Below are positions 6,337 to 51,955 of a stretch of DNA of 64,000 bases, piece after piece. This DNA is from an uncultured Bacteroidales bacterium (GTDB taxonomy: Bacteria; Bacteroidota; Bacteroidia; Bacteroidales; WCHB1-69), in contig ONAB01000004.1 of NCBI GenBank assembly GCA_900315705.1, positions 103,993 to 167,992 of the forward strand, read 5' to 3'. Every line of letters starts with the position of its first letter. The first letter of the stretch is position 1. A program made the position numbers and the translations under genes. The notes under the pieces are model-generated. The model made no database searches. It worked only from the letters and a program-made list of their open reading frames with translations, and was not told the origin of the DNA.

Positions 6337-6566
6337 GACGTAAGACTTTAGACTTTAGACTTTAGACGTAAGACTTTAGACTTTCCTTAAGCAGTCCCGA
6401 AGGGGCAAAATCCCAGTAACCCCGCACAAGCGACGAAGGAGCGCAGTGTGGTGCCGTGAGGAGGAGCATCTTCCTTGAGCAGCCCCGAAGGGACAAAATC
6501 CTAGTAACCCCGCACAAGCGACGAAGGAGCGCAGTGTGGTGCCGTGAGGAGGAGCCCGCACATCGC
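6337..6566 (+). repeat. Composite hairpin repeat, locus 1 (heptamers-B-C-B-C)
   Basis: Fills the gap between two convergent genes. It starts at the base after the stop codon with about seven degenerate copies of a 7-mer of type AGACTTT (6337-6384). Module B follows (hairpin 6394-6406, GTCCC-GAA-GGGGC), then C (6420-6466), then B again (6482-6494) and C again (6508-6554). C reads CCCCGCACAAGCG, a loop, then CGCAGTGTGG, and ends GCCGTGAGGAGGAG. Its arms pair imperfectly. The same modules recur at four other loci in this window. Function unknown. Confidence 0.9.
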
Positions 6567-6600
6567 AAAAAAAAGAACCGCCCCGAGGGACGGCTCTTTT
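6567..6600 (-). terminator. Rho-independent terminator of the rplM-rpsI-rpsB-tsf operon
   Basis: On the minus strand an 8-bp stem with two G-T wobbles and a CTCG loop (6576-6595) is followed by a T run. It lies about 35 nt past the tsf stop codon and abuts repeat locus 1. Confidence 0.8.
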
Positions 6601-6632
6601 CTAATTATGAAAAAAACAAAACATTTCTTGGA

Positions 6633-7640
6633 TTAAGCACCGACTTGACGGCGGATAAATCCAGTACATTTCAGATCTTTGTCAACGGAAGCAATGTAAT
6701 CGCGCACATTCTGCTTGCCGTCGCCACCCATCACGAGCACTTGGTACATCAGGGTGCTCTCCTTGAAGAACTTCACCAGACGGCCTTGGGCGATCTGCTG
6801 AATCTGAGCCTCGTTGAGGTTAGCAGCCTTGTTGGCGGCTTCCTCTTCCTTGATCTTGCGGGCGAGGTTAGCTTGTTCTTCGGTAATCCAGCCCTTGGCG
6901 AGGTTGGAGTTGATATGGTCTTCGCTGTCCACGTGGGTGGGGTTGATACCAGCCTTGTTGAGGGCGGCGTCCACAGCCTTGTTGATCAGCTCGAGACGGG
7001 TCTTCTCAACAGCGACTGCGAGTTCGCGATCCTTGTCCTCTTGGGGGATAGCGTTCTCGTCCAGAGCCAGCGGGCTCATAGCGGTGATGTGGAGGGCCAC
7101 ATTGTGGGCGACTTCCTGAGCTTTCTCACCACCTTTGTTGAAACAGACGAGGGTAGCCTTGTGGTTGCCCATATGGTTGTAAGCCTCCACGAGGGGAGCT
7201 TCCACATAGTCGTAGTGAGGAAGTTCGATCTTCTCACCCGTCTTGCCGGTGAGCTCGGTCATCATATCGGCCACGGTGTTGCCATCGATGGTCATAGCGA
7301 GGAGGTCCTCTCTATTCTTGATGCCAGCGGCCATAGCCTTGGCGACGACGGTATCCACGAAATTGACAAAGTCGGCGCCACGGCCCACGAAGTCAGTTTC
7401 GCAGGCCACCACCAGCATAGCGCCAGCGGTGCGGTCGGCGTTGGTCATAGCCACGATACGGCCTTCGTTGGACTCACGATCGGCGCGTTTGGCGGCCACT
7501 TTCTGACCCTTCTTGCGGAGGATATCGATGGCTTTGTCGAAATCGCCGTCAGCTTCGACGAGGGCTTTCTTGCAGTCCATCATACCGATACCGGTCTGTT
7601 TTCTGAGTTTATTTACATCAGCAGCTGTAATTGTTGCCAT
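6633..7640 (-). CDS. tsf: Elongation factor Ts
   Basis: 335 aa. EF-Ts recycles EF-Tu by displacing GDP. The UBA-like N-terminus has the family signature KLRKQTGIGMMDCKKAL at 13-29, followed by a motif of type ADRESNEGRI and the core dimerisation region. The length is near that of other Bacteroidetes EF-Ts and longer than E. coli's. It is the last gene of the ribosomal operon, 29 nt after rpsB, the usual rpsB-tsf pairing, and is followed by a clear terminator. Confidence 0.97.
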   Translation of the reverse strand: MATITAADVNKLRKQTGIGMMDCKKALVEADGDFDKAIDILRKKGQKVAAKRADRESNEGRIVAMTNADRTAGAMLVVACETDFVGRGADFVNFVDTVVAKAMAAGIKNREDLLAMTIDGNTVADMMTELTGKTGEKIELPHYDYVEAPLVEAYNHMGNHKATLVCFNKGGEKAQEVAHNVALHITAMSPLALDENAIPQEDKDRELAVAVEKTRLELINKAVDAALNKAGINPTHVDSEDHINSNLAKGWITEEQANLARKIKEEEAANKAANLNEAQIQQIAQGRLVKFFKESTLMYQVLVMGGDGKQNVRDYIASVDKDLKCTGFIRRQVGA

Positions 7641-7669
7641 AATAAAAGTCTTTTAAAGGTTAATAAAAA

Positions 7670-8488
7670 TTATTCGTTTCTCGGGGCGGAGGGACGACGG
7701 CTGACTCTTCTTCTGCGGCCTTCGTTGTCCTCATTGTCCTCGACTTCCTCGTTCTCCACATCCACATTCTCGAGTTCCTCGTTCTGGGCATCCTTGTTCA
7801 TCTCGCGCTCGTTGAGGCCTTCGCGGATAGCTTCGCAGATGGGCTTGAGCACAGCGGCGATGGACTTGGAGGCGTCATCGTTGGCGGGGATGGGGTAATC
7901 CACGAGGTTGGGGTTGGAGTTGGTGTCCACGATAGCGAACGTCGGGATGGCGAGCTTGCGAGCCTCAGCGACTGCAATGTGCTCTTTCATCACGTCCACG
8001 ATGAAGACGGCTGCCGGGAGACGGTTCAGGTCGGCGATGGAACCCAAGTTCTTCTCGAGTTTGGCGCGCTCACGCTGAATCTGCAGTCTCTCACGCTTGG
8101 AGATGTTGTTGAATTGCGGGCTTTCGATCAGGCGATCGATATCGCTCATTTTCTTCACGGCCTTGCGGATGGTGAAGAAGTTGGTGAGCATACCGCCCGG
8201 CCAACGCTCGGTCACGTACGGCATACCGACTTCCTTAACCATCGAGGCGACGGTTTCCTTGGCCTGTTTCTTGGTGGCCACGAAGAGGATCTTGCGGCCG
8301 GAACGAGCGATGCTCTTGGCAACTTCAGCGGCCTGGTCCACCTTCTCGACCGTCTTGTGCAGGTCGATGATGTGGATACCGTTCTTCTCCATAAAGATAT
8401 AAGGAGCCATAGCGGGGTTCCATTTTCTCTTGAGGTGTCCGAAATGACAGCTAGCGTCTAATAATTCTTCAAATTGTACTCTTGACAT
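7670..8488 (-). CDS. rpsB: 30S ribosomal protein S2
   Basis: 272 aa. Opens with the S2 signature region (SRVQFEELLDASCHFGH, then KRKWNPAMAPYI) and contains VIVDTNSNPNLVDYPIP-like text (AIVDTNSNPNLVDYPIPAND) near residues 185-205. A low-complexity C-terminal tail is first acidic (ENVDVENEEVEDNEDN) and then basic (RRRRVSRR). Such extensions occur in this phylum but are not part of the core fold. It sits between rpsI (107-nt gap with a leader hairpin) and tsf. Confidence 0.97.
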   Translation of the reverse strand: MSRVQFEELLDASCHFGHLKRKWNPAMAPYIFMEKNGIHIIDLHKTVEKVDQAAEVAKSIARSGRKILFVATKKQAKETVASMVKEVGMPYVTERWPGGMLTNFFTIRKAVKKMSDIDRLIESPQFNNISKRERLQIQRERAKLEKNLGSIADLNRLPAAVFIVDVMKEHIAVAEARKLAIPTFAIVDTNSNPNLVDYPIPANDDASKSIAAVLKPICEAIREGLNEREMNKDAQNEELENVDVENEEVEDNEDNEGRRRRVSRRPSAPRNE

Positions 8489-8527
8489 TTTTTCTTTTTT
8501 TTTAATTGTTTACATTCTTTAAAGCAA

Positions 8528-8558
8528 CCGCGGAGTAGTTCCGGAGAAATCTCCGCAG
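8528..8558 (-). promoter_or_regulatory. Hairpin in the rpsI-rpsB gap, possible S2 leader structure
   Basis: GCGGAG (8530-8535) pairs with CTCCGC (8551-8556) around a 15-nt loop that contains the palindrome TCCGGA. It sits about 45 nt before rpsB in a 107-nt gap that is otherwise AT-rich. It could be an attenuator, a processing site or an autoregulatory S2 site; the sequence alone does not decide. Confidence 0.35.
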
Positions 8559-8595
8559 TTTCGATACTAAACAAGCATACGTATATATATAAATA

Positions 8596-8982
8596 TTAAC
8601 GTTTGCTGAATTGGAATCTCTTACGGGCCTTGGGCTGACCGGGTTTCTTACGCTCGACCATACGCGGGTCACGGCGGAGGAAGCCTTGAGCCTTCATAGC
8701 GGAACGGAGTTCAGGGTTGATTTCCACCAGGGCCTTGGCGATAGCCATACGGAGAGCCTCGGCTTGGCCGGTCATACCGCCGCCGTCGAGGTTGGCCTTG
8801 ATGTCATACTGGCCCAGCACTTCTGCCACACGCAGGGGCTGTTCAACCTTGTATTGTAAAGTAGGAACACAGAAATATTCCTTGTAATCGCGGTGATTCA
8901 CCTTGATCTCGCCGGTGCCGGGTTTCATATACAGACGGGCGACGGCGGTTTTTCTTCTGCCTAATGTATTTGTTACTTCCAT
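8596..8982 (-). CDS. rpsI: 30S ribosomal protein S9
   Basis: 128 aa, full length for the family. It begins MEVTNTLGRRKTAVARLYM, has GGGMTGQAEALRMAIAKALV mid-protein, and ends with the conserved basic tail RKRFQFSKR, which reaches into the ribosomal P site. It follows rplM after 2 nt, the near-universal rplM-rpsI pair. Confidence 0.98.
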   Translation of the reverse strand: MEVTNTLGRRKTAVARLYMKPGTGEIKVNHRDYKEYFCVPTLQYKVEQPLRVAEVLGQYDIKANLDGGGMTGQAEALRMAIAKALVEINPELRSAMKAQGFLRRDPRMVERKKPGQPKARKRFQFSKR

Positions 8983-8984
8983 TG

Positions 8985-9440
8985 CTATTTAATGTCGTTG
9001 ATGTTTATTAACTTGGGTTGTTGAGCCTCGTGCGGGTGGTTCGGGCCCACGTACACGTGGAGGTTGCGATAGAGCTGGCTACCGAGTCTGTTCTTCGGAA
9101 GCATACCCTTGATGGCGTGTTCCAGAATGCGCTCCGGATACTTGCGCATGACCTCCTTGGGCGTGGCAAAACGCTGTCCGCCAGGATAAGTGGTGTGGTG
9201 CACATACTGCTTGTCGGTCCACTTCTTGCCAGTGAATCTCACCTTCTCCGCATTGATGATGATCACATTGTCACCACAGTCGAAGCTCGGTGTGTAATAG
9301 GGCTTGTTCTTGCCTTTCAAAATGCGTGCGACAGCCGTAGCCAAACGACCGACCACCATTTCCTGTGCATCGATTAAAACCCACTCTTTCTTGACGATCT
9401 CTTTGTTCGCCGAAATTGTTTTGTAACTTACTGCATCCAT
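8985..9440 (-). CDS. rplM: 50S ribosomal protein L13
   Basis: 151 aa. Contains the family motifs WVLIDAQEMVVGRLAT (20-35), GDNVIIINAEKVRFTGKKW and the C-terminal PKNRLGSQLYRNLHVY. It is the first gene of the rplM-rpsI-rpsB-tsf operon, with a leader of about 110 nt and a promoter box at 9553-9560. Confidence 0.98.
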   Translation of the reverse strand: MDAVSYKTISANKEIVKKEWVLIDAQEMVVGRLATAVARILKGKNKPYYTPSFDCGDNVIIINAEKVRFTGKKWTDKQYVHHTTYPGGQRFATPKEVMRKYPERILEHAIKGMLPKNRLGSQLYRNLHVYVGPNHPHEAQQPKLININDIK

Positions 9441-9754
9441 TTTTCAGTTTGTTGTTTTTTTTGTAGGAAATGTCTTCACCCACATTTCCCGAGTTTTTTA
9501 ATTAATTCCTTTTACTAACATTAAGGACAATAATCGGTATTTTTTAGGCGCGCAAAGATACATTTTTTTTCATAACCTCCCACCCTATCAACCTCATTTT
9601 CTTTACAATAGATAATGTATTGAAAAACAATATTTTACACATTTCAAAAAGATTAAAAAAGAGATTATCACACCTTTACCCTCCACTTGATTTGGAAGAT
9701 TAGAGCCCCGCAATCAGCAAAAATGAAGCATTGAAAGGGGATAAAAGCGGGGAA
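9441..9754. other. Intergenic region between aroA and rplM
   Basis: 314 nt without a gene. The rplM-proximal part holds the leader and promoter box. The rest is AT-rich. Near aroA, CCCCGC (9706-9711) and GCGGGG (9747-9752) could pair over a 35-nt loop as a weak aroA terminator. Nothing else recognised. Confidence 0.5.
9553..9560 (-). promoter_or_regulatory. Bacteroidetes -7 box for rplM operon
   Basis: TATCTTTG on the minus strand matches the TAnnTTTG consensus of the Bacteroidetes primary sigma factor. No good -33 TTTG is seen. The implied mRNA leader is about 105 nt. Confidence 0.65.
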
Positions 9755-10900
9755 CTACATATCACTCTGCAAGATATCGGGAAGTTGCGGGTAGGATTTC
9801 CTGAGGCATCCCAAATCGTCGAGGCGCGCCTCCGGGCCGAACAACAGGAAGGCCATCGCCAGCCGGTGGTCATTGCAGGTGCGGAACGCATAGGGCGGCT
9901 GCGGCCATTTCATCCGCTCCTTACCCTTGACACACAACGAGTTGTCTGTGCACCGGATTTCCGCAAAGGGCGAGAGTTGACCAGCCAACTCCCCCACCCT
10001 GTCCGATTCCTTGTAGCGAAGGTTGTCCGTGTGCAGGAAAGTGACATCCGCCGGCAACAGCACGGCCAACGCGGCCATCACGGGCACCACGTCGGGGTGG
10101 TCGGCCACATCCAACCGAAGGCTGGCGTTCTGCCGGGGACGCTGAGCGGCAATGCGCACACCGCGTTCCGTCTCCTCGCTGCTCACCCCCAACTCTTTAA
10201 ACCACCCGGCCACTACGGCATCGCCCTGGGCCGAAGTGAGAGACAGGTCCAGCAACTCATAGCTGTTTTCGGGATGGAGCAGCGCGTGGGCATACCAGAA
10301 GAGGGCCGCGCTCCAGTCGCCGGAACGGCCTAACGGGCCTTGCGGCTGAGGCAGTCCGGGGATCTCCACCGGGGCAGGCATACAGAGGCGGGTCAGTTGC
10401 AGGTAGGGTTTGGAGGGGATGTCAGCAGGGGCAAGTTCCAGCCGGCGGAGTCCGATTTCAGGGGCGATGAGCAACAGGGCCGAGGCAAACTGGCTGCTCT
10501 GCCGCGCATCCACGGTGAGCGTCTCCGCCCGGAGCGCGCACCCTTCGATGCGCCAGCCCTCCTCCACGCGGGTGATGCGGCCACCGATGGAGCAGAGGGC
10601 CTGCACCAGCCCCTCCATCGGACGTTCCAACAGACGGGGCGTGCCCGTCAGGAGCCAGCGACCCGGGGTGACAGCCAGCAAGGCCATCACAAAGCGGCAG
10701 GCGGCACCGCAGTCGGCCACATCGACGACCGCGCCGCGTCCGGCGGATTCGGCCACCACCTTCAGGGCACGGTGCGTGACACACACATCCTCGCACTCGC
10801 CCCCACGAAGCGGCAACAGGTCGCCCGTCTGGACAAAATGGGCCATCATCTGCCTGATAACAATGCTTTTACTGCTCGGAAGAAGGATTGAAAAATTCAT
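9755..10900 (-). CDS. aroA: 3-phosphoshikimate 1-carboxyvinyltransferase (EPSP synthase)
   Basis: 381 aa from the ATG at 10900. An upstream in-frame ATG at 10936 would place the start inside the promoter. Shikimate-pathway enzyme transferring enolpyruvate from PEP. Visible motifs: LPSSKS at the N-terminus, NLRYKESDR (PEP and shikimate site), NDHRLAMA, and RKSYPQLPD at the end. Two departures: the usual SKSxxNR is SKSIVIR, losing the Asn, and the protein is shorter than the roughly 420-430 aa norm. The signature regions remain, so activity is likely. The gene stands alone, divergent from the rhomboid gene. Confidence 0.9.
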   Translation of the reverse strand: MNFSILLPSSKSIVIRQMMAHFVQTGDLLPLRGGECEDVCVTHRALKVVAESAGRGAVVDVADCGAACRFVMALLAVTPGRWLLTGTPRLLERPMEGLVQALCSIGGRITRVEEGWRIEGCALRAETLTVDARQSSQFASALLLIAPEIGLRRLELAPADIPSKPYLQLTRLCMPAPVEIPGLPQPQGPLGRSGDWSAALFWYAHALLHPENSYELLDLSLTSAQGDAVVAGWFKELGVSSEETERGVRIAAQRPRQNASLRLDVADHPDVVPVMAALAVLLPADVTFLHTDNLRYKESDRVGELAGQLSPFAEIRCTDNSLCVKGKERMKWPQPPYAFRTCNDHRLAMAFLLFGPEARLDDLGCLRKSYPQLPDILQSDM

Positions 10901-10905
10901 CGCCG

Positions 10906-10913
10906 CAAAAATA
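10906..10913 (-). promoter_or_regulatory. -7 box for aroA, 5 nt from the start codon
   Basis: TATTTTTG on the minus strand ends 5 nt before the aroA ATG, so transcription should begin at or just before the start codon: a leaderless or nearly leaderless mRNA if the box is used. Confidence 0.5.
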
Positions 10914-10924
10914 GGATTTTTTCG

Positions 10925-10932
10925 TATTTTTG
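10925..10932 (+). promoter_or_regulatory. -7 box for the rhomboid gene
   Basis: TATTTTTG, back to back with the aroA box on the other strand and 49 nt before the ATG at 10982. Confidence 0.55.
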
Positions 10933-10981
10933 CCAACTTTTATAAATCTTAACATACCACTATAAACCATAACCTTACCCA

Positions 10982-12061: not shown

Positions 12062-13224
12062 TGGCCTCCAAGAAATTAAGCATATTGAAAAGCATCGGCA
12101 AATGGCTGCTGATTCTCGTCACGGTGGTGGCGGCAACAGCGTTGTTCTTCGCCTTCCTGGCGCAGATTCTGCGTCCCTCCTTCAGCCATATCATCGCCTT
12201 CTGCGGGCTGTTCTTCTTCTACATCTTCCTGACAAACATCCTGCTGGTGCTGGTCTGGATTTTCATTGACTACCGTTTGGCCTTGATTCCGCTGGTCCCC
12301 ATTCTCATCAATGTCAACAACGTGGACCGTCATTTCCAGTGGCACGCCCAGGACAAGCCCGAGACCTGCGCCAACTGCATCAAGGTGATGAGCTACAACG
12401 CCCGCGTGTTCGGCATCTACGACGCCAACGACGACGTCAAGAAGCGCAAGCAATACAAGAAGACGCTGCTCGATTTCTTCAGCAAGGAGTGCCCCGACAT
12501 CCTCTGCATACAGGAGTATTTCTACGACAAGACCGGAAAGCTCAACTTCAACACCACCGAGGGCATCCTCAATGCGATGGAGCTCCCCGACAGCGACCGC
12601 AACTACCGGCTTTTCCTGAGCAACTCCTCAGGCCCTCACCAGTTCGGACTGGCCGTGTTCAGCCGCTACCGCATCGTCAACAGCGGCTTTGTGGAGACCT
12701 CCGACAGTTCCAATAACAAGGCCGTGTTCGTGGACATCCGCTACAACGGCGACACCCTGCGCATTTACAACATCCACCTGCAGTCGATGAGTCTGGGTGA
12801 AGAGGATTACGCCACGAGCGAGGCGGTGCTGCACTCCGACATCAGCGACCCCGAGATCGAGGCCAAGACCGCCAAGCTCTACCACAAGATCACCCGGGCC
12901 TACGACCTCCGCCAATGGCAGGCCAAGAGCATCCGCGCCCACATCGACAGCTGCAAGAAGCCCGTCATCATCTGCGGCGACTTCAACGACTCGCCCGCAT
13001 CCTACTCCGCCCACAAGATCGGGCACGGCTTCAAGGACAGCTTCCGCAGCAGCGGCAAGGGCTTCGGCGCCACCTTCTACGGCGAACCCTTCCCGCCCTA
13101 CCGCATTGACTACATCTTCCACGACAAGCAGTACAACGACTTCGGTCACACCATCTGCACCGACATCAACATCTCCGACCATAAACCCATTTACACGTAT
13201 ATATCCATTCTGGAGAAGAGATGA
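12061..13224 (+). CDS. Membrane-anchored endonuclease/exonuclease/phosphatase-fold protein
   Basis: 387 aa. Two or three N-terminal membrane helices (about 12-36, 40-62 and 64-80) precede an EEP domain. Active-site motifs are in order: MSYNARVFG, CIQEYF (metal-binding Glu), NIHLQS, ICGDFNDSP (Asp/Asn), RIDYIF and SDHKPI (catalytic Asp-His). These specify a metal-dependent phosphodiesterase or phosphatase, but not the substrate; DNA, RNA, phosphoinositide-like lipids or other phosphoesters are possible. Start overlaps the rhomboid stop by one base. Repeat locus 2 begins directly at its stop codon. Confidence 0.9.
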   Translation: MASKKLSILKSIGKWLLILVTVVAATALFFAFLAQILRPSFSHIIAFCGLFFFYIFLTNILLVLVWIFIDYRLALIPLVPILINVNNVDRHFQWHAQDKPETCANCIKVMSYNARVFGIYDANDDVKKRKQYKKTLLDFFSKECPDILCIQEYFYDKTGKLNFNTTEGILNAMELPDSDRNYRLFLSNSSGPHQFGLAVFSRYRIVNSGFVETSDSSNNKAVFVDIRYNGDTLRIYNIHLQSMSLGEEDYATSEAVLHSDISDPEIEAKTAKLYHKITRAYDLRQWQAKSIRAHIDSCKKPVIICGDFNDSPASYSAHKIGHGFKDSFRSSGKGFGATFYGEPFPPYRIDYIFHDKQYNDFGHTICTDINISDHKPIYTYISILEKR

Positions 13225-13366
13225 TGTGCGATGTGCGATGTGCGATGTACGATGTGCGGGGTTTCTCCTCACGGCTCCACACTGCGCGACGTCGTCGCTT
13301 GTGCGGGGTTACTGGAATTTTGCCCCTTCGGGGCTGCTCAATGAAAGTCTAAAGTCTAAAGACCTA
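13225..13366 (-). repeat. Composite hairpin repeat, locus 2 (inverted orientation)
   Basis: Starts at the stop codon of the upstream gene with four to five GATGTGC heptamers (13225-13257). One C module follows (13264-13308), then one B (13322-13334, perfect GCCCC-GAA-GGGGC on the minus strand), then heptamers (13344-13363). Inside C, a perfect GCGAC-triloop-GTCGC hairpin at 13286-13298 replaces the looser inner stem of other copies. Its orientation is opposite to both flanking genes, unlike the other four loci. Confidence 0.88.
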
Positions 13367-13376
13367 GTTCACAGAT

Positions 13377-14465: not shown

Positions 14466-14470
14466 TTCGA

Positions 14471-15514: not shown

Positions 15515-15544
15515 TCAACAGGTTTAAGGAGCTAAATTGTGGCA

Positions 15545-16135
15545 TTAATGCGACAATATGGCGGTAAAAGTCTTAAATATCAGTTTGAAATCCTCTTTCA
15601 GCGACTGGTTGTCAATATATTGCAGGTTGAGGGCAAGTTTGGCGGGCATCACCTCCTCAATGTAGGTACGTTCGGGATCGTCGGAAGCGGCCAGCACCTC
15701 GTTCTCATTCACATAACGGATGGAAGCATAGTCGGTGAGTCCGGGGCGCACTGAGAGCACACGCATCTGCTCGGGCGTGTAGAGGTCCACATACTTGCGC
15801 ACCTCGGGACGCGGCCCCACAATGCTCATATCCCCTTTGAGGATGTTGAGCAGCTGGGGAAACTCGTCAATCTTGTATTTGCGCAGAAAATAGCCCACAC
15901 GCGTGATGCGGCTATCGCGCGCACCCACCGTGAGCAGCCCCTTGCTGTCGGAATCGGGGCGCATCGTGCGGAACTTGTACAGATTGAAGTCGCGGTTGTC
16001 CTTCCCTACCCTTTTCTGGACATAGAAAACACCACCGCGCGATTCCAGCACAATCAGCAAGGCCACCACCAGCCAGACCGGCAGCAGCAGCACAAGCACA
16101 ACAAGAGAACAAAGAAAGTCAAGAACCCGTTTCAT
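15545..16135 (-). CDS. Small bacterial sugar transferase (monotopic phosphoglycosyl transferase)
   Basis: 196 aa, the size of PglC/WecP-type minimal enzymes that move a sugar-1-phosphate from a nucleotide donor to undecaprenyl phosphate and so start glycan assembly. One N-terminal re-entrant hydrophobic helix (8-28) is followed by YKFRTM, the catalytic-type KIDEFPQLLNIL and GDMSIVGPRPE. Only 9 nt downstream of the GWxTD gene, so co-transcribed. No glycan-assembly cluster is adjacent, which is unusual for an initiating transferase. Confidence 0.92.
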   Translation of the reverse strand: MKRVLDFLCSLVVLVLLLPVWLVVALLIVLESRGGVFYVQKRVGKDNRDFNLYKFRTMRPDSDSKGLLTVGARDSRITRVGYFLRKYKIDEFPQLLNILKGDMSIVGPRPEVRKYVDLYTPEQMRVLSVRPGLTDYASIRYVNENEVLAASDDPERTYIEEVMPAKLALNLQYIDNQSLKEDFKLIFKTFTAILSH

Positions 16136-16144
16136 CCTTCGCTA

Positions 16145-17665: not shown

Positions 17666-17749
17666 AATGTAGAGACGCGGCGCGTATAAATAATGTAGAG
17701 ACGCGGCGCGTATAAATAATGTAGAGACGCGGCGCGCCGCGTCTCTACA
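17666..17749. repeat. 26-bp direct repeats ending in a 30-bp perfect palindrome
   Basis: Three copies of a unit containing TGTAGAGACGCGGCGCG begin at 17666, 17692 and 17718, exactly 26 bp apart. The third runs into its own inverted copy, giving a 30-bp perfect palindrome at 17720-17749. It lies between the end of glyS and the GWxTD promoter. On the minus strand it could act as a terminator after glyS, but there is no T run. A related TGTAGAGA hairpin lies at 21121-21154. Confidence 0.9.
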
Positions 17750-26131: not shown

Positions 26132-26917
26132 TCACCAGACGGAATCCCAGTCCTCGGCATCGCGCACAGACGGGTCGCGCTGGTATTCCAGCAGTTTGGC
26201 ATACTTCAGGAAACTGTTGTGGGCCACAGCCTTCGAAAGAACATAACCGTCGAGGCCGCCGAAAATGCCGCCGCGCAGGAAATAGTTCACGAAGAAAGCG
26301 GCAAAGCCGTGGAAAAACGGGGAGAAAGCACTAGCTTTCTTGCCCTTCAGGAAGAGTATCTTGGCCCCACGGCTGCTGTAGTTACGCTCCGGCTTGGCAA
26401 AGAGCTGGTCGTAGTTCTTATAGCGATAGTGTATCAAGTCGGCCTTGATGCGAAGAGTGTTGTGCTCGGGCACAAAGGCGTGCTGTTTCAACTCGGCAAA
26501 GCGCAGCTTGTCCTTCCGGAACAGGCGCACCAGATAGTCGGGATACCAGCGGCAGCACTTCACCCAGCGCTCGCCGATATAGTTGCGGCGGCGCAAGGCA
26601 AAACCATCATACGGGGTCTTGTCGAAATCCGTTTGGCGGATAAACTCCACCAGCTCATCGGAAAGGCGCTCGTCAGCATCGATACTCAACACCCACGGGT
26701 TGGTGGCGTATGGCAGACAGAGGTTCTTCTGCAAGCCGTCGCCAATATATTCGTGCAAATAGACCTTTGCCCCGGCGGCCTGCGCCAGCTCCACTGTGTT
26801 GTCCTGACTGTTGGAATCCACCACCACCACCTCGTCGCAAACCTGTTGCAGCGAGCGGATGCAGGCCTCGATATTCTTGGCCTCGTTGAGTGTTGTGATG
26901 ATTCCAGTGATTGACAT
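26132..26917 (-). CDS. GT2 glycosyltransferase, WaaE/KdtX-like (LPS core type)
   Basis: 261 aa from the ATG at 26917. The open frame runs 33 codons further through repeat locus 3, but those codons are repeat DNA. GT-A motifs: GIITTLNEAKNIEACI, VVVDSNSQDNT and SIDADERLS (DxD-like). The C-terminus has a hydrophobic stretch (FFHGFAAFFVNYFLRGG) common in membrane-associated LPS core transferases. Likely adds a hexose to LPS or a capsule glycan. The start codon touches the heptamer tract of repeat locus 3. Confidence 0.85.
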   Translation of the reverse strand: MSITGIITTLNEAKNIEACIRSLQQVCDEVVVVDSNSQDNTVELAQAAGAKVYLHEYIGDGLQKNLCLPYATNPWVLSIDADERLSDELVEFIRQTDFDKTPYDGFALRRRNYIGERWVKCCRWYPDYLVRLFRKDKLRFAELKQHAFVPEHNTLRIKADLIHYRYKNYDQLFAKPERNYSSRGAKILFLKGKKASAFSPFFHGFAAFFVNYFLRGGIFGGLDGYVLSKAVAHNSFLKYAKLLEYQRDPSVRDAEDWDSVW

Positions 26918-26918
26918 T

Positions 26919-27170
26919 GCGATGTGCGATTTGCGATTTGCGATTTGCGATTTGCGGGGTTCCTCCTCAAGGCCCCACACTGCGCTCCTTCGTCGCTTGT
27001 GCGGCCTTCTCCTCACAGCTCCACACTGCGCTCCTTCGTCGCTTGTGCGGCCTTCTCTTCACGACCCCACACTGCGCTCCTTCGTCGCTTGTGCGGGGTT
27101 ACTGGGATTTTGTCCCTTCGGGACTGCTTAAGGAAAGTCTTAAGTCTTACGTCTCAAGTCTTACGTCCAA
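26919..27170 (-). repeat. Composite hairpin repeat, locus 3 (one B, three C)
   Basis: Read on the minus strand: heptamers (AAGACTT/GTAAGACT type, 27134-27166), B (27112-27124, perfect GTCCC-GAA-GGGAC), three C modules (about 27054-27097, 27008-27050 and 26962-27003), then heptamers of type CGCAAAT/CGCACAT (26919-26957) ending at the start codon of the glycosyltransferase. It fills the murA-GT2 gap completely, leaving no separate space for a promoter. Confidence 0.9.
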
Positions 27171-27173
27171 CAT

Positions 27174-28484
27174 CTACCCTCCTACCCTTTCAATACAGGC
27201 TCCCAACGCATTGAGGCGTTCCACAATGTGCTGGTAGCCGCGGTCAATTTGTTCAACATTCTGTATGATGCTCTTCCCCTTGGCGGAGAGGGCGGCGATG
27301 AGCAGAGCAACGCCGGCACGGATATCCGGGGAGGCCATCACCGTGGCGCGCAACTGCTTGCGACGTTGCAGGCCGATGACGATGGCGCGGTGCGGGTCAC
27401 AAAGGGTGATCTGCGCTCCCATCGACTGCAGTTTGTCCACAAAGAACAACCTGCTCTCGAACATCTTCTGATGGATGAGCACACTGCCCCTGGCCTGGAT
27501 AGCCGTGACGAGGGCGATACTGATCAGGTCAGGGGTGAAGCCCGGCCACGGGGCGTCGGCAATGGTCAGGATAGAGCCGTCCATATTGGTCTCCACCTCG
27601 TAGCAATCCTGCTCGTGGATGACAATGTCATCGCCCTGGATGTCAAAATCAATGCCCAGTTTCCGGAAAGTGTCCGGGATAATTCCCAGGTGCTGGACGG
27701 CACAGTCCTTGATGGTAAGGGACGACTGCGTAAGCGCGGCCATCCCGATAAAGCTGCCGATCTCAATCATATCGGGCAAGATGCGGTGTTCGCAGCCATT
27801 GAGTTTCTCCACGCCGTGGATGCGGAGCAGGTTGGAGCCGACCCCTTCAATGCGGGCGCCCATCTTGTTCAGCATCGTGCAGAGCTGATAGAGATAGGGT
27901 TCGCAGGCGGCGTTGAAGATGGTGGTTTCACCTTCAGCGAGGACTGCCGCCATCACGACGTTGGCCGTGCCAGTCACCGAAGCTTCAGGCAGCAGGATAT
28001 AGGTGCCCCGAAGCTGGTCACATTGCGCCTCGAAGAAGTTGCCGTCTTCGGAGATGCTCACCTTGGCGCCCAGTTTTTCAAGGCCCTCAAAATGGGTGTT
28101 CAGCGGACGGCGCCCGATCTGGTCGCCACCGGGACGGGCGGCGTATGCCTTGTGGAACCGTCCCAACAGCGGTCCGAGCACCATAATGGAGGCCCGTATC
28201 GAAGTGGACAATTTGGTAAACTCCTTCGTGAGCAGCATATCCAGGTTGACATTGTCGGCCTGGAACGTGAAGGTGTCCTTGTTGTGTTTGGTGATTTTCA
28301 CCCCAAGGAGGGAAAGAATGTCGCGATAGCGCTGCGTGTCGCGGATGTCCGGCAAATTGGAGATAGTCACCGGCTGGTCCGTCAACAGAACGGCAGACAA
28401 CACCTGGAGGGCCTCGTTCTTGGCCCCCTGCGGGATGATTTCGCCACTCAATTTGTGGCCACCTTCAATGAGAAATTCGGACAT
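27174..28484 (-). CDS. murA: UDP-N-acetylglucosamine 1-carboxyvinyltransferase (MurA), Asp variant
   Basis: 436 aa from the ATG at 28484; 29 further open codons upstream are repeat DNA. First committed step of peptidoglycan synthesis. QGAKNEAL holds the Lys22-Asn23 pair. The catalytic-loop Cys is replaced by Asp121 (RPGGDQIGRRP, codon GAC at 28122-28124). Family knowledge: Asp at this position is natural in some bacteria and prevents covalent inactivation by fosfomycin. C-terminal FESRLFFVDKL is typical. Both ends of the gene abut composite repeats (loci 3 and 4). Confidence 0.95.
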   Translation of the reverse strand: MSEFLIEGGHKLSGEIIPQGAKNEALQVLSAVLLTDQPVTISNLPDIRDTQRYRDILSLLGVKITKHNKDTFTFQADNVNLDMLLTKEFTKLSTSIRASIMVLGPLLGRFHKAYAARPGGDQIGRRPLNTHFEGLEKLGAKVSISEDGNFFEAQCDQLRGTYILLPEASVTGTANVVMAAVLAEGETTIFNAACEPYLYQLCTMLNKMGARIEGVGSNLLRIHGVEKLNGCEHRILPDMIEIGSFIGMAALTQSSLTIKDCAVQHLGIIPDTFRKLGIDFDIQGDDIVIHEQDCYEVETNMDGSILTIADAPWPGFTPDLISIALVTAIQARGSVLIHQKMFESRLFFVDKLQSMGAQITLCDPHRAIVIGLQRRKQLRATVMASPDIRAGVALLIAALSAKGKSIIQNVEQIDRGYQHIVERLNALGACIERVGG

Positions 28485-28641
28485 ATTCGATTTGCGATTT
28501 ACGGTTTGCGATTTGCGGACCCCCACACTGCGGCTTCGCCTTGTGCGAGGTTTCTCCTCACGGCACCACACTGCGGCTTCGCCTTGTGTGGGGTTACTGG
28601 GATTTTGTCCCTTCGGGACTGCTTAATGAAAGTCTTAAGTC
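28485..28641 (-). repeat. Composite hairpin repeat, locus 4 (one B, two C)
   Basis: Read on the minus strand: heptamers (AAGACTT type) starting immediately at the phosphofructokinase stop codon, B (28607-28619, perfect GTCCC-GAA-GGGAC), two C modules (about 28555-28594 and 28520-28552), then CGCAAAT-type heptamers (28485-28517) ending at the murA ATG. In both C copies the inner hairpin is GGC-GAA-GCC, a different but self-pairing version of that in loci 1 and 3. Confidence 0.9.
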
Positions 28642-29874
28642 TTATTCCGGGATTACGATAGGGAAATGCTGATCAAACTCCATACGATAGGGGGCGCCGA
28701 TGATGTTGGTGAGGAAATCGACGTACTGGTCGGTGAACTGGAACTTGTTGGCGTCGTAGTAAGCGGCGGGCAGCGGGAAGTTGCCGATGTTGCCCATCTC
28801 GATGGCGTCGGCGTGGAACTCCTCAAGTTCGGAGTAGGGCACGATGTCGCGCATCACGGGCATCTTGCCGTAGTCTTCGCGGAGCAGCAGGTCCACCACC
28901 TTGTCGGCGAGCGTGGAGGTGAGTCGTCTGTCGTACTCATAGCACTTGCCGGAACGCGGGATGTAGCCGGAAATCTGGCCGCGGGCCTCAATGCCGAGAC
29001 GGCGGTTGATTTCAGAAGCGATAACGCCGCTCACGCCACCAAAGCGCGGGTGACCATATTCGTCGAGGTCGGAAGAGGCATAGACCATTCCGAGTTCCTG
29101 CTTTTCATCGTCCCACCAGCGCACGCCTTCAGAAACGGCAATGATAAGACTGTGTTTCGGGGAGCGCATATACATCTCCTTGACCGACTCGAAGAAGAAC
29201 TCCTTGCGTTCTTTGGTCATCTCCACTTCAGGCACGAGGGCCATCTGGGCGCCACCGAACACGGCCGTACCCGTCAGCCAACCGGCATCGCGGCCCATCA
29301 CCTCAAGCACCATAATGCGCTGGTGAGACTCGTTGGTGGTGTGCAGTTTGCTGGTCAGTTTCTTGATAGCCATAGCACCGGAGGGGAAGCCAGGACAGAG
29401 CACCGTCTCGTGCTGCTGGCCATTATAGTGATGCATCGTGCGCGTGCGCAGGTCGTTGTCGATGGTCTTGGGGAAACCGATGACAGGGATGCCGTAAGTC
29501 TCGTACATTTTCTTGGCAGCGCCATTGGTATCGTCACCACCGATAGTCACCAGCACATCGATTTTATAGCGCTCGATGTTGCGGAGAATCTGCTGGGAAC
29601 GGTCCTCGGGATTCTTCTTGCTGGGGAACGGGTTGGTACGGGAGGAGAGCAACGCGGTACCGCCGTAGATGCCGTTGTACGGGATATTGGTCAGATCCAC
29701 GATGTCGCCATCGCCCAAAAGGCCCTTCCAGCCGCGCAGCACGCCATACACCTTGAAGCCCAACATAGAGGCACGGTTGCGCACACATTCGATACTGGAG
29801 TTGATGGCCGGAGTGTCACCACCGCCGGAAAGGATGGCCAATGTTTTGCCATTGAAAAGTTTGTCTGTTCTCAT
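28642..29874 (-). CDS. pfp: Pyrophosphate-type 6-phosphofructokinase
   Basis: 410 aa. PFK family: LSGGGDTPAINS binds phosphate near the N-terminus. IGGDDTNG has Asp115 where ATP enzymes have Gly104, and FPKTIDND has Lys136 where they have Gly124. This Asp/Lys pair is the established signature of PPi-dependent enzymes. Asp139 is the catalytic base; MGRDAGW follows. The enzyme interconverts fructose-6-phosphate and fructose-1,6-bisphosphate using PPi, a reversible step fitting both glycolysis and gluconeogenesis. Preceded by the DUF4197 gene (37-nt gap), followed by repeat locus 4. Confidence 0.9.
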   Translation of the reverse strand: MRTDKLFNGKTLAILSGGGDTPAINSSIECVRNRASMLGFKVYGVLRGWKGLLGDGDIVDLTNIPYNGIYGGTALLSSRTNPFPSKKNPEDRSQQILRNIERYKIDVLVTIGGDDTNGAAKKMYETYGIPVIGFPKTIDNDLRTRTMHHYNGQQHETVLCPGFPSGAMAIKKLTSKLHTTNESHQRIMVLEVMGRDAGWLTGTAVFGGAQMALVPEVEMTKERKEFFFESVKEMYMRSPKHSLIIAVSEGVRWWDDEKQELGMVYASSDLDEYGHPRFGGVSGVIASEINRRLGIEARGQISGYIPRSGKCYEYDRRLTSTLADKVVDLLLREDYGKMPVMRDIVPYSELEEFHADAIEMGNIGNFPLPAAYYDANKFQFTDQYVDFLTNIIGAPYRMEFDQHFPIVIPE

Positions 29875-43735: not shown

Positions 43736-43748
43736 AGGTCAAAAAAAA

Positions 43749-45443: not shown

Positions 45444-45469
45444 AATGGCACTGCTTTATAATTTCGGTG

Positions 45470-45477
45470 CAAAGATA
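45470..45477 (-). promoter_or_regulatory. -7 box for cassette 1 (A1-B1)
   Basis: TATCTTTG on the minus strand, 26 nt before the A1 start codon. Confidence 0.6.
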
Positions 45478-45488
45478 CAATAAATAAT

Positions 45489-45561
45489 TGAGAATGGAGA
45501 ATCAAGAATTAAGACGTGAGACTTTTTTCGCAAATCGCAAATCGCAAATCGCAAATTACGG
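45489..45561. repeat. Heptamer repeats between the two cassettes (locus 6)
   Basis: GAGAATG-type copies at 45489-45502, an AAGACGTGAGACTT stretch at 45511-45524, and four CGCAAAT copies at 45529-45556 ending close to the stop codon of the downstream-lying gene. Same heptamer types as at loci 1-5, but without B or C modules. Confidence 0.8.
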
Positions 45562-48222: not shown

Positions 48223-48235
48223 AAGTCAAAGGGGA

Positions 48236-49972
48236 TTAGCGATTGAGGAAAACTTTTTGGGTGACGAGTGTACCATAGGCATCCTTGCAACGGATAATAT
48301 ATAGTCCATTTCTATGCGATAAAAGGGGATTCGATATCCCATTGGTGGTTTCCCCATAACTAACCAATTTACCAGCTATGTCAAAAACCTGATATTGGAT
48401 GTTCCCTTGGAATCCGTAACAAACAAAAAATCCACTGTTGGGTGACACGGTCACCAACGCCTGTTGGACTTTTATGCCTTTAGTGCTTCCGGTATCAGAG
48501 CTGTTCTCTTCTTTGGAACAGACTATTGGATCCTTGCATTCGATGTACGAAAAGGTGGTGTCCGGTTGGTTAATCGTTGCGTTCCCTATATCATAATTGT
48601 TTACGATGGGAATTGTAGGTATTTGTCCGATGGATGGAGAACAAGGAGAGTCCAAGACATCAAGTTTAAAATCGCAAATAGCCATTGAAATATCATAGGT
48701 CTCCGTCAGAAGGGGAGTGGTTCCGAATATGGTTTTTGCGATGCCAGTGGAAATGACTGCTGAGCAAGGATGGTGCGGATTGTAAACTATGTTGTTGAAT
48801 TCGAGTTCGTTTGAATATATGGTCTGAAATGGTGCAGCCCAAGTTTGACAAGATGAATTTCCTGCTGTGCTGGAAATTTGTCTGACGTTTAGAAAGGACA
48901 AGTCATAAGGATCGGTCTGCGCTATAAAAGTGGTCGGCTTCGAGCAATAATTGAACCGTCCCAGGAAAGTTACTTGTTTATTGCAACTATCATACACCAT
49001 TCCGTATGAAGACAACTTGTGTAAAGGAGCATAAAATGATGTTGATATTGATAATATGGGGAGTGAAACAAAGTCACTGATTAAGGTTAACCAGATCACA
49101 TCGTAAGAATCATCTCGTAAATCTTGGTATAACAACAAATTGTCAGCATCAATCAAGGAAAGCAGGGAACGCTCTTCTGACCATTCGCAGTGAAGGTTAT
49201 GGTTGACAGAATATTTGAGAAATTCATCATATCGATAAGGATAACTAATAGTGGAATTATATCTGAAACAATCTATGAACGGATTCATTGTCCCGTTAAT
49301 GGGGTCAACAAAGTCGCCGCTTGTCACAAAACAGTGGTTTTCTCTACTCCACATCACATCGGAGAAGTATCCCTGTTGACCTGAATATTCCAAACCATAG
49401 TAATAATATATTGAGGAGGGAGGGGCCATAGGATTAAAAGGAATGGTCGGCATAGGGTCAAGTGTGAAAACCTGTCCCTCTTTGAACACGAACATATTGG
49501 TAACACTTCCGTTGATATCATATCCAGAACAACCTTTTGTAATTTCAGTTCCTGATGGTAATTCATTGTATTTTAATGATCCCCCCCCGGAAACGTCTAT
49601 TTCCGCCACATAGCCATAATTGTAACCCAGAGTGTCGTAGCAAAGGCCATACAGGACAATTATGCCATCAAAAGATTCGAAACCGCCCCGTAATAGTATT
49701 TTGCCCTTGGAAGATGCTTGCAAAAAAAACAAACCATATCCTATAGTTTGTTGCAAAGTTGACGAATTGATTTCTGTCAGGTGGATATTGTTGGTTTGGT
49801 CATCCGTTTGGGCGAGATAAGCCTTCCCTCCAGGACAAATCACTGTAACAGCACTTGATGCGTTGACAATACCAGTATTGGCGTGTACGCCATAACTGTA
49901 GTGACCGTTTTGCGCCACGGCAGTAGTACAAACGACTAATGCGATTAATAAAAAGGATAAAATTCTTTTCAT
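48236..49972 (-). CDS. Surface cassette gene A2: T9SS type A cargo, propeller-like
   Basis: 578 aa, paralogue of A1. Signal peptide MKRILSFLLIALVVCTTAVAQ. Shared text with A1: KGKILLRGGFESFDGIIVLYGLCYD, TKGCSGYDINGSVTN, SSYGMVYD and FIAQTDPYDLSFLNVRQI. Ends with a type A sorting domain (GFQGNIQYQVFDIAGKLVS, GLYIIRCKD, KVFLNR). A1 and A2 have diverged throughout, unlike the conserved ends of B1 and B2. First gene of cassette 2; promoter box at 49999-50006. Confidence 0.75.
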   Translation of the reverse strand: MKRILSFLLIALVVCTTAVAQNGHYSYGVHANTGIVNASSAVTVICPGGKAYLAQTDDQTNNIHLTEINSSTLQQTIGYGLFFLQASSKGKILLRGGFESFDGIIVLYGLCYDTLGYNYGYVAEIDVSGGGSLKYNELPSGTEITKGCSGYDINGSVTNMFVFKEGQVFTLDPMPTIPFNPMAPPSSIYYYYGLEYSGQQGYFSDVMWSRENHCFVTSGDFVDPINGTMNPFIDCFRYNSTISYPYRYDEFLKYSVNHNLHCEWSEERSLLSLIDADNLLLYQDLRDDSYDVIWLTLISDFVSLPILSISTSFYAPLHKLSSYGMVYDSCNKQVTFLGRFNYCSKPTTFIAQTDPYDLSFLNVRQISSTAGNSSCQTWAAPFQTIYSNELEFNNIVYNPHHPCSAVISTGIAKTIFGTTPLLTETYDISMAICDFKLDVLDSPCSPSIGQIPTIPIVNNYDIGNATINQPDTTFSYIECKDPIVCSKEENSSDTGSTKGIKVQQALVTVSPNSGFFVCYGFQGNIQYQVFDIAGKLVSYGETTNGISNPLLSHRNGLYIIRCKDAYGTLVTQKVFLNR

Positions 49973-49998
49973 AATGAGAATGGTTAATATTGCGGCTG

Positions 49999-50006
49999 CA
50001 AATATA
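49999..50006 (-). promoter_or_regulatory. -7 box for cassette 2 (A2-B2)
   Basis: TATATTTG on the minus strand, 26 nt before the A2 start codon, the same distance as in cassette 1. Confidence 0.55.
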
Positions 50007-50070
50007 TAAAAAAAAATTATCGGGCTAACAAAGAAATAATAATTGTTTCTCTAGCAACGCACTTTTTTAC

Positions 50071-50078
50071 TATTTTTG
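50071..50078 (+). promoter_or_regulatory. -7 box for the DHH phosphoesterase gene
   Basis: TATTTTTG, 20 nt before the TTG start at 50099; it supports that start because no ATG lies between the box and the conserved domain. Confidence 0.55.
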
Positions 50079-50098
50079 CAGCCTTAAAAAACAGAGAC

Positions 50099-51121
50099 TT
50101 GAAAAAGCAGGAAATACAACTCTTCAAGGAGACGCTGGAGCGGTCGAAACGCATCGCCATTGTCTTCCATTTCAACCCTGACGGGGACGCGGTGGGCTCC
50201 GCTTTAGCCCTGTATCACTATTTCAAAGACGACGGTTATGAGGTGTCGGTCATCTCGCCGAACCCGTTCCCGGACTTCCTCCACTGGATGGAAGGGGCCA
50301 ACAACATCATCGTCGCCCAGGAGCACCTCACCACGGCTCGCAAAGCCATCAAGGAGGCCGACATCCTCTTCGTGGTGGATATGAATATGCCGCACCGCGC
50401 CGGACAGGACCTCGAGCGCTCCATCGTCAAGGCCCGCGGTTTCAAGGTGCTCATCGACCACCACGTGCAGCCCGACATCGAGTGCGACGTGATGTACTCC
50501 ACCTCCAAGACGAGCTCCGCCGCCGAGCTGGTCTATAATTTCCTCTACAAGTACCTGACCCCAAAACGCAAGTTCACCCGCCCCATCGCCGAGGCCCTCT
50601 ATGTGGGCATCATCACCGACACGGGCTCGGTGACCTACGCCTGCGACCAGCCCTCCACCTACGACGTGCTGCGCAAGATCATCGCCTCCGGTGTCAACGG
50701 GGAGTCAATACACCGCAAAGTCTATGACAACTACACCATCAGCCGGATGAAACTGTTGGGCCTCGCCCTGTCGCAGCGTATGACCGTGCTGCCCGAGCTG
50801 GGCGTCTCCTATATGTATCTCAGCAAACAGGACCTCCTGGACAACGGTTTCCAAATCGGCGACACCGAGGGGTTCGTCAACTACGGCCTCTCCATCCAGG
50901 ACATCCACTACACCGCCTTCTTTGTGGAGCGGGAGAACCGCATCCGGGCCTCCTTCCGCTCGATGGGCCCTGTGGATGTCAACAAGTTCGCCCGCAAATA
51001 CTACAACGGTGGCGGCCACCACAACGCGGCCGGCGCCTTCTTCAACGGCACCATCGAGGAGGCTCTCAAGCACTTTGAGCAAGCCGCCCGCGAAACCTTC
51101 CAGAACGACTTCAAGATCTGA
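50099..51121 (+). CDS. DHH family phosphoesterase, NrnA-like (nanoRNase/pAp phosphatase)
   Basis: 340 aa, start codon TTG. No in-frame ATG precedes the conserved N-terminus. DHH domain: FHFNPDGDAVGSALALYHY, FVVDMN, and LIDHHVQPD. DHHA1 domain ends with GGGHHNAAGAFF. NrnA enzymes degrade very short RNAs and dephosphorylate pAp. Followed after 5 nt by a GldI-like lipoprotein, an association I recall from flavobacteria. Confidence 0.88.
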   Translation: MKKQEIQLFKETLERSKRIAIVFHFNPDGDAVGSALALYHYFKDDGYEVSVISPNPFPDFLHWMEGANNIIVAQEHLTTARKAIKEADILFVVDMNMPHRAGQDLERSIVKARGFKVLIDHHVQPDIECDVMYSTSKTSSAAELVYNFLYKYLTPKRKFTRPIAEALYVGIITDTGSVTYACDQPSTYDVLRKIIASGVNGESIHRKVYDNYTISRMKLLGLALSQRMTVLPELGVSYMYLSKQDLLDNGFQIGDTEGFVNYGLSIQDIHYTAFFVERENRIRASFRSMGPVDVNKFARKYYNGGGHHNAAGAFFNGTIEEALKHFEQAARETFQNDFKI

Positions 51122-51126
51122 ACGCT

Positions 51127-51648
51127 TTGACCCGTCCTCTCCGCATATTGTCCTTGCTGCTTTGTCTGCTGCTTGCCGCCGCCTGCCATAACCGGCAGAC
51201 CGGCCAGGTGGTCACCTCCGACAAGGAGCCCACAGTTGACAAGGATGCTCCCTACGTGGAGGGCAACAAGAAAATCCTGCAATGGGAAAACGAAGAGATC
51301 GACCTCTTCGTCAAGCGATACGGCTGGGATATGACGCGCACGGGCACGGGCCTCCGCATCCAGATTGTAAAACCCGGCGAGGGCGAATGCTTCCAGGAGG
51401 GCGACCTTGTGACCCTCGACTACGAAACGTTCCTCCTGTCGGGCGAGCGCGTGTACAACGGTGAAAAATCCTTCACCGTGGGACGCTCCGAGGAAATCAC
51501 GGGCCTGCACGAGGCCGCGCAACTGCTCCGTCCCGGCAGCGAAGCCCGGCTGGTTGTCCCCTCCCACCTCGCCTACGGCGTGGCCGGCGACGGCGACCAG
51601 ATCAAGGGGCGCGTGCCGGTGGCGATGATTGTACGAGTGAAGAATTGA
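51127..51648 (+). CDS. FKBP-type peptidyl-prolyl isomerase lipoprotein, GldI-like
   Basis: 173 aa, start codon TTG. Signal peptide with lipobox LAAAC (Cys20). FKBP domain from about 75: LDYETFLLSGERVYN, then ITGLHEAAQLLRPGSEARLVVPSHLAYG, with the family's strand-helix pattern though several active-site aromatics are altered. Resembles GldI, a lipoprotein needed for gliding and T9SS function in flavobacteria; whether it acts so here is inference. Repeat locus 5 begins at its stop codon. Confidence 0.78.
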   Translation: MTRPLRILSLLLCLLLAAACHNRQTGQVVTSDKEPTVDKDAPYVEGNKKILQWENEEIDLFVKRYGWDMTRTGTGLRIQIVKPGEGECFQEGDLVTLDYETFLLSGERVYNGEKSFTVGRSEEITGLHEAAQLLRPGSEARLVVPSHLAYGVAGDGDQIKGRVPVAMIVRVKN

Positions 51649-51955
51649 GAATGGAGAATGGAGAATGGAGAATGGAGAATTATACCTCAAGCAGTCCCGA
51701 AGGGACAAAATTCCAGTAACCCCGCACAAGCGAAGCGCAGTGTGGGGCCGTGAGGAGGAGCCTGGTAACCCCGCACAAGCGACGAAGGAGCGCAGTGTGG
51801 GGCCGTGAGGAGGAGACATAATACCTTGAGCAGCCCCGTAGGGGCAAGAGCTTGGTAGAGCCCCACAAGGCCGAAGGCCGCTGTGGGGAGCCGTGAGGAG
51901 GAGCCTGATACCCCCCCACAAGGCCGAAGGCCGCTGTGGGGAGCCGTGACGAGGA
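51647..51955 (+). repeat. Composite hairpin repeat, locus 5 (B-C-C-B-C-C)
   Basis: The largest copy. Five GAGAATG heptamers (51647-51680) overlap the stop codon. Then B (51694-51706, perfect GTCCC-GAA-GGGAC), C (51720-51760), C (51768-51815), B (51833-51845, perfect GCCCC-GTA-GGGGC), C (51861-51903) and C (51914-51955). The last two C copies have a perfect outer stem CCCCACA/TGTGGGG and inner GGCC-GAA-GGCC. It fills the 348-nt gap between two FKBP genes, with about 40 AT-rich nt left before the second start. Confidence 0.92.

Follow-up and report, generated by a model that had tools for sequence, protein, structure and literature searches.

What kind of element recurs five times between the genes of a single stretch of Bacteroidales DNA? 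The stretch, hereafter the window, comprises 64,000 nucleotides at the end of a 168-kb contig (ONAB01000004.1) in the 3.0-Mb, 47-contig draft genome of an uncultured Bacteroidales bacterium. An original prediction, made from the letters of the window, described five intergenic loci that combine heptamer repeats with a short hairpin (module B) and a longer one (module C), and considered a non-autonomous mobile repeat, a structured 3' untranslated region (3'UTR) element or a DNA-binding array. We find that the elements are a genus-wide dispersed family of small two-hairpin repeats. We consider it probable that they are genus-specific, non-autonomous repeats resembling repetitive extragenic palindromes (REPs), kin to the repeats that flank Y1 transposase genes of subclass 1.2, a scarcely studied group of single-strand DNA transposases, and that the subfamily found in the window has been kept as hairpins on the sense strand of messenger RNAs (mRNAs). 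Behind this reading stand a layout in common, repeats shared between the two flanks of most of the subclass 1.2-like genes sampled, dispersal through the genome, presence and absence at a shared gene junction, and covarying hairpins.

A genus-wide family of two-hairpin repeats

The family has the short extragenic palindromes in many copies that characterize REPs: a blastn search with the first of the five elements found 54 places in this genome, and the hairpins covary (see below). The original prediction had proposed a covariance model search of the genome and related Bacteroidales, and our model (R1) found the family dispersed, matching 40 of 41 genus genomes with 1 to at least 120 matches each, and 92 in this genome; R1 also picks up units without the CCTT part described below, and high per-genome counts are lower bounds (at least about 119). 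Of 146 genomes outside the genus, drawn evenly from the order, 8 were matched, mostly weakly and once each except for one genome with six matches. A first blastn survey was positive in 21 of 24 genus relatives and in 0 of 16 genomes outside the genus. A profile of 27 units had no match at E ≤ 1e-3 in five Markov-1 random copies of a 433-kb genome sample, and Rfam families gave no match within the window at gathering score. That the copies are an assembly artefact confined to this contig, a concern that a 47-contig draft might raise, is refuted by these places on many contigs, by the matches in 40/41 genus genomes and by the empty random copies, and the probability left to this explanation is negligible.

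The window-type unit consists, in this order, of CCTTRAGCAG, hairpin B (YCYC.GAA.GRGR), a spacer of ~9 nt, a foot of GTAA or GTAG, and hairpin C, which is longer than B. Aligned units measure about 69-78 nt and have a constant start; no terminal inverted repeat, as in miniature inverted-repeat transposable elements, was seen in them. The window type is distinguished by the extra 5' part CCTTGAGCAG, ahead of which the relatives' copies have an A/T-rich stretch. The foot of C is GTAA or GTAG in most units of this genome and often ATAA or TTAA in relatives, and a third mini-hairpin in the spacer (GCRC.GAA.GYGC) occurs in many of the relatives' copies and in few of this genome's own.

Covariation was assessed in alignment A2, which comprises 59 units drawn from this genome and its relatives. 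Paired cells reached 94.6%, compared with at most 56% in slid controls, and changes on both sides of a pair were seen in 57 cells against a shuffled mean of 18.8, with none of 500 shuffles as high. Two further measures were unexceptional, the number of pairs with a double change being reached by 45 of 500 shuffles and that of further pair types by 295 of 500. The predicted hairpins B and C are thus supported by covariation, with one of three measures exceptional. Among non-Watson-Crick cells, leaving out one C pair that is broken in many own copies, there were 40 G-T and 9 A-C; in these related sequences such an excess would be weak evidence for pairing on the sense strand, either as RNA or as that strand of the DNA.

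Several neighbouring and hybrid structures were observed. A hairpin GGGGTGCCCGAAGGGCGGGGTAGT lies directly 5' of several elements (loci L278, L287, L288, L304, L306, L320 and L332, and contig positions C45:99016 and C6:69929). Upstream of murA in three genomes, a window-type B is followed by a different C of the form CCCAGGG...CCCTGGG (L262 in G017, L265 in G055 and L268 in G047), and C hairpins of this type also occur beside a transposase gene like P0004 (see below) in L192. Modules therefore seem to be exchangeable between units.

Pattern and profile searches, together with direct reading of the loci, bore out the five predicted loci and their 7 B and 12 C modules. Element 1 (BCBC, 6385..6555, plus strand) has B at 6394-6406 and 6482-6494 and C at 6420-6453 and 6508-6541; element 2 (BC, 13265..13343, minus strand) has B at 13322-13334 and C at 13275-13308. 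Element 3 (BCCC, 26963..27133, minus strand), with B at 27112-27124 and C at 27065-27098, about 27019-27050 and about 26973-27004, sits between a glycosyltransferase-like gene (26132-26917, minus strand) and murA (27174-28484, minus strand). The latter separates it from element 4 (BCC, 28519..28628, minus strand; B at 28607-28619, C at 28564-28593 and 28521-28553), which occupies the gap between murA and a phosphofructokinase-like gene, pfkA (28642-29874, minus strand); the names of murA and the glycosyltransferase-like gene were read from their translations. The second C of element 4 scores weakly against the profile (E 0.067) and is plain by sequence. Element 5 (BCCBCC, 51685..51955, plus strand) has B at 51694-51706 and 51833-51845 and C at 51720-51747, approximately 51768-51802, 51857-51888 and 51902-51953 (the last including flanks), and contains both spacer types, AAAAT..GTAA and AAGAGCTTGGTAG. 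Modules are all direct within every window locus, and the alternating orientation that marks bacterial interspersed mosaic elements (BIMEs) of REPs was found at none of the five. As predicted, element and 5'-side gene run in the same direction at four of the five loci, the exception being element 2 (13225-13366). An encoded peptide was considered and, as judged by eye, rejected: a short frame from TTG is broken where the sequence is CTTAAG. The window also holds a perfect 26-base tandem repeat of 2.7 copies (17666-17736), unrelated to the element.

Repeats beside subclass 1.2-like transposase genes

This genome has five Y1_Tnp (PF01797) genes. Four of them, P0001 (contig C35), P0002 (C20), P0004 (C2) and P0005 (C6), encode proteins of 149-157 aa, 32-61% identical to the first of them, that carry DH[LIV]H together with Y---Q--HH. 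Quentin et al. 2018 (PMC6006769) give the latter motif as the signature of TnpA-Y1 subclass 1.2, for which their table enters no REPs. With this motif, HUH and a length close to the about 148 aa of the subclass, we assign the four to subclass 1.2 by signature motif. The fifth, P0003 (contig C34, L037 2958-3701, 247 aa), resembles the REP-associated tyrosine transposases (RAYTs): its best NCBIfam match is REP_Tyr_transpos (cut-off 80) at 64 bits, compared with 22-29 bits for the other four, which by this score and by Y---Q--HH do not fit the class 2 TnpA-REP enzymes. On the IS200/IS605 model NF033573 (cut-off 55), P0004 (63 bits) and P0005 (66) score above the threshold and P0001 (52.8) and P0002 (48.2) below it. 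An AlphaFold2 model of P0001 (mean pLDDT 86.6) found ISDra2, IS200 and IS608 TnpA as its best Foldseek matches; the REP enzyme 4er8 also matched (E 3.8e-6).

Hairpin arrays adjoin all four subclass 1.2-like genes, on both sides in three cases. The C20 and C6 genes have two-hairpin units on both flanks. Units beside the C35 gene match the window profile, having the same spacer end, foot and C hairpin and a different B, and the C2 array, along with its relative in another genome, has the spacer and foot GCTCGGTAG in common with part of the window family, as judged by eye. The palindrome near P0003 is a different one, GACGCTTCCAGCGTC, copies of which lie inside both ends of the P0003 reading frame and adjacent to it.

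To what extent this arrangement extends to relatives was seen in a scan of one genome per species, which gave at least 587 pattern matches; 573 of those listed encode relatives, and the best 80 were kept. Many of these come from rumen Bacteroidales, and others from genomes titled Flavobacteriia, Cytophagia, Cloacimonadota, Neomarinimicrobiota, Verrucomicrobia, Kiritimatiellota and more. The catalytic residues, namely the two histidines of HUH and the Y, Q, H and H, are invariant in all 28 proteins aligned (7 of 35 intended rows were left out). A locus was taken as testable when each flank reached at least 500 bases, and its near flanks of up to 700 bases as sharing when they had two or more 13-mers in common; this was so in 52 of the 65 testable loci among the best 80, as against 1 of 47 distal control pairs. 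A strict unit pattern (a hairpin, 4-20 bases with TAA or TAG near their end, a second hairpin) found 139 two-hairpin units in the flanks of the best 80 loci, compared with 2 in the 47 distal pairs and 1 in shuffled flanks, with some of the 139 joining, by eye, hairpins of neighbouring units. At least two such units were present in 36 of the 80 loci and fewer than two in 44. Most of the subclass 1.2-like genes sampled here thus share repeats between their flanks, which departs from the published lack of an associated REP.

Sense orientation and turnover of the gaps

The family falls into two types that differ in their surroundings. Units starting with CCTTGAGCAG were found in none of the 115 transposase loci, while other units gave 37 matches in 22 of them; the REPtron arrangement, in which the repeat flanks a Y1 gene, was accordingly seen in 0/115 loci for the window type. 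Units without the CCTT part stand beside transposase genes and are also dispersed.

Orientation, counted with a codon-usage gene caller, is strikingly biased in the window type. The 5'-side gene is on the same strand as the unit in 27 of 31 cases in this genome, in 21 of 21 in a first set of relatives, and in 63 of the 66 that could be determined among 71 units from 60 further regions of seven relatives, which were taken from top-scoring matches and partly overlap the first set. The 3'-side gene agrees in 19/31, 19/19 and 58/63, respectively, and overlap with a predicted gene is rare (1/31, 1/23 and 0/71). For units without the CCTT part the 5'-side gene is on the same strand in 20 cases and on the opposite one in 16 (6:4 in this genome, 4:6 in the relatives and 10:6 in the further set, the last after three units were moved by eye to the CCTT type; the script gave 13:6, and 37:3 for the CCTT type). 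The difference between 63:3 and 20:16 has a Fisher p of 1.8e-6, in units that are not independent, since related genomes share positions. A replication-strand preference alone would hardly yield such agreement with the upstream gene.

The original prediction had suggested comparing empty sites in relatives, and presence and absence were indeed seen at the pfkA-murA junction, the site of element 4, and in two further gaps. Among 30 loci compared at the junction, 27 have the same upstream gene. The window type is present in six by profile (this genome, G042, G018, G017, G047 and G003) and by eye in a seventh (G055), in all seven in sense. Six genomes (G052, G014, G023, G044, G011 and G050) have a gap of 0 to 39 nt, and the other 14 gaps, of 57 to 208 nt, hold heptamer-like arrays, another palindrome or unassigned sequence. 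In other species a different palindrome, GTAGGGGCG...CGCCCCTAC, occupies the junction upstream of murA (L261, L270, L271 and L273). Between G018 and G042 the occupancy is reciprocal: in one further intercistronic gap, with flanks 76-79% alike, G018 has the element where G042 has a short array, and in another, with flanks 90-92% alike, it is the other way round. The same two genomes carry similar copies of an other-type composite of about 200 bases at about five distinct places, consisting of a GTCCCGACAGGGAC...GGTAG-type unit plus a B-TAA-C unit (L342, L346, L348, L351, L354, L357 and L359), and these copies suggest recent spread.

Tandem heptamers often accompany the elements. In the window, AGACTTT-type arrays lie on the B side of elements 1 (6337..6384, plus strand) and 2 (13344..13363, minus), AAGACTT-type heptamers on that of element 3 (27134..27167, minus), a remnant of this type on that of element 4 (28629..28641, minus), and GAGAATG-type heptamers on that of element 5 (51641..51680, plus). 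On the C side there are CGCACAT-type heptamers at element 2 (13223..13258, minus), CGCAAAT heptamers at element 3 (26917..26956, minus) and CGCAAAT-type heptamers at element 4 (28485..28517, minus). Judged by eye, B-side arrays lean towards AGACTTT or GAGAATT and C-side arrays towards CGCAAAT. In the 433 kb there were 47 arrays of period 7 and 5 of period 8, and none of periods 5, 6, 9 or 10. Of this genome's window-type units, 22/31 have a period-7 array within 15 nt on the B side, a criterion that 1.8% of random intergenic points satisfy, and 10/31 have one within 40 nt on the C side; among the relatives' units the figures are 5/71 within 15 nt and 37/71 within 80 nt on the B side, and 5/71 on the C side. 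Arrays also occur without a hairpin element, for example those of several sequences at window positions 45528-45556 and 63866-63902 and at C45:70512-70592 and C6:77848-78331, and heptamer sequences seem to drift into each other along an array. The heptamers that the original prediction counted as part of the element are therefore real, strictly of period 7 and often abutting; they do not define it, given the 5/71 in relatives. We likewise dropped the idea that heptamers form the element's ends, an adjacent array being absent from most relatives even though 22/31 own units have one. The heptamers are a separate repeat class and a frequent neighbour of the element.

Origin of the elements and comparison with known systems

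We propose that a TnpA of subclass 1.2 would recognise hairpin and foot on single-stranded DNA and might spread the unit in trans, as has been suggested for REPs. The window subfamily may have gained its 5' part, an A/T-rich stretch (in relatives) followed by CCTTGAGCAG, and may have been retained almost only in sense behind an upstream gene with which it would be co-transcribed. Because of this orientation bias a role in mRNA is proposed, most likely as an intercistronic or 3' structure that could serve in protection, in processing or in insulating the next start. Two of the roles first considered would thus hold in part, each covering only part of the picture: the mobile repeat, in view of presence and absence at the junction and of units like those beside Y1 transposases, and the structured 3'UTR element, in view of the strong sense orientation. 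For the DNA-binding array we found no separate support beyond the possibility that a transposase binds the units.

Several observations weigh against a mobile origin tied to these enzymes and a role in RNA. The window type is absent from all 115 transposase loci, so these loci point to no cognate enzyme for it. Of the four genes in this genome, that on C35 lacks repeats on its upstream side and has two-hairpin units only downstream, and the C2 array shows B hairpins with a GGTAG foot to either side of its gene and no clear C hairpin. A P0001-like gene is only loosely linked to copy number, which is higher with the gene (Mann-Whitney p 0.010, 12 vs 12 genomes, kinship uncorrected), and among the 12 genomes that lack the gene, 4 nevertheless have 28 to 111 first-look candidates. 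In the G018/G042 gaps compared, which are not alignable beyond the genes, neither the ends of an insertion nor a target site could be placed. Three sites of this genome have an element at the same junction in a relative, as looked up with a longest-open-reading-frame caller that misplaced genes, and such shared positions fit vertical keeping as well as mobility. Finally, the G-T excess comes mostly from hairpin C (33 to 2, with 21 at one pair), hairpin B having 2 to 5.

Could the CCTT subfamily instead be mainly a cis-acting RNA element inherited vertically (stabilising the 3' end, serving as a processing site or acting as an attenuator), which has lost its mobility and has no more than a common ancestry with the transposase repeats? 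In its favour are the sense orientation, the lack of the window type in 115 transposase loci and the three shared junctions. We regard it as unlikely, in view of the pfkA-murA junction, where 7 of 27 genomes hold the window type and six others have gaps of just 0 to 39 nt, the reciprocal presence and absence between G018 and G042, and copy numbers of 1 to at least 120 inside one genus. Passive turnover, in which slippage and gene conversion would create and multiply the hairpins and heptamers and no transposase takes part, would account for intercistronic gaps that change completely and often contain heptamer arrays; a defined unit of constant start with covarying hairpins, at many unrelated places, makes it very unlikely. 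A further alternative, conventional REPs mobilised by P0003 or another class 2 RAYT while subclass 1.2 is uninvolved, draws on the RAYT-like score of that protein, itself below the cut-off, and appears highly improbable when the palindrome adjacent to P0003 differs and units matching the window profile adjoin P0001 instead.

Beyond REP-like repeats kept in sense, we tentatively suggest, as a possibility that we hold with some doubt, that a transposase-borne two-hairpin repeat joined to an A/T-rich-CCTTGAGCAG module became a genus-wide, sense-only mRNA part, intercistronic or 3' in many operons and under selection on the transcribed strand, and that subclass 1.2 enzymes in several phyla each keep a private two-hairpin family. 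The sense-oriented subfamily, with as many as about a hundred copies in the genomes of many species, offers a case where filled and empty orthologous sites can be compared to study whether a mobile hairpin may have been domesticated as an mRNA element.

The original prediction knew of no family with such a layout. This agrees with Rfam and with the open-access literature searched by title and start of abstract, in which we found no description of repeats of subclass 1.2 or of two-hairpin REPs, whereas the unit itself resembles the REP, a described kind. Intergenic heptamer arrays are likewise a described class, such as the TAACTGA repeats reported from five Bacteroidetes (PMC4679880), which share the period of 7 and the intergenic position; here there are several heptamer sequences (AGACTTT, CGCAAAT, GAGAATT and others), often beside hairpin elements. 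REPs and BIMEs with their RAYTs, as described in PMC6006769, PMC3733652 and PMC8266576, have in common with our family extragenic hairpins of ~30-45 nt, in part a GTAG-like foot, many copies and related units beside a Y1 gene. They differ in that two different hairpins here follow a fixed order, copies in the window are direct rather than alternating, the enzymes are of another subclass and the window type is strictly sense-oriented. We do not claim formal REP/RAYT membership, from which enzyme class, orientation and the lack of transposase flanking by the window type depart and with which the GTAG foot agrees in part.

The IS200/IS605 elements IS608 and ISDra2 share the fold and catalytic motifs, and the two hairpins recall their left- and right-end hairpins; the four genes here, in contrast, are 32-61% identical to the first of them and are not copies of a single insertion sequence, and the repeats occur without a gene. 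The TIR-associated tyrosine transposases (TIRYT) of PMC3733652 are, as described there, Y1 genes beside non-REP repeats that are also found elsewhere in the genome, with inverted repeats around the gene in place of our arrays of B-foot-C units. With TnpA-Y1 subclass 1.2 as set out in PMC6006769, the enzymes here share Y---Q--HH, DH-hydrophobic-H, about 150 aa, low copy number and occurrence in Bacteroidetes. These transposases were published without an associated repeat and with their role unknown; most of the genes sampled here share repeats between their flanks, and these repeats are candidate substrates.

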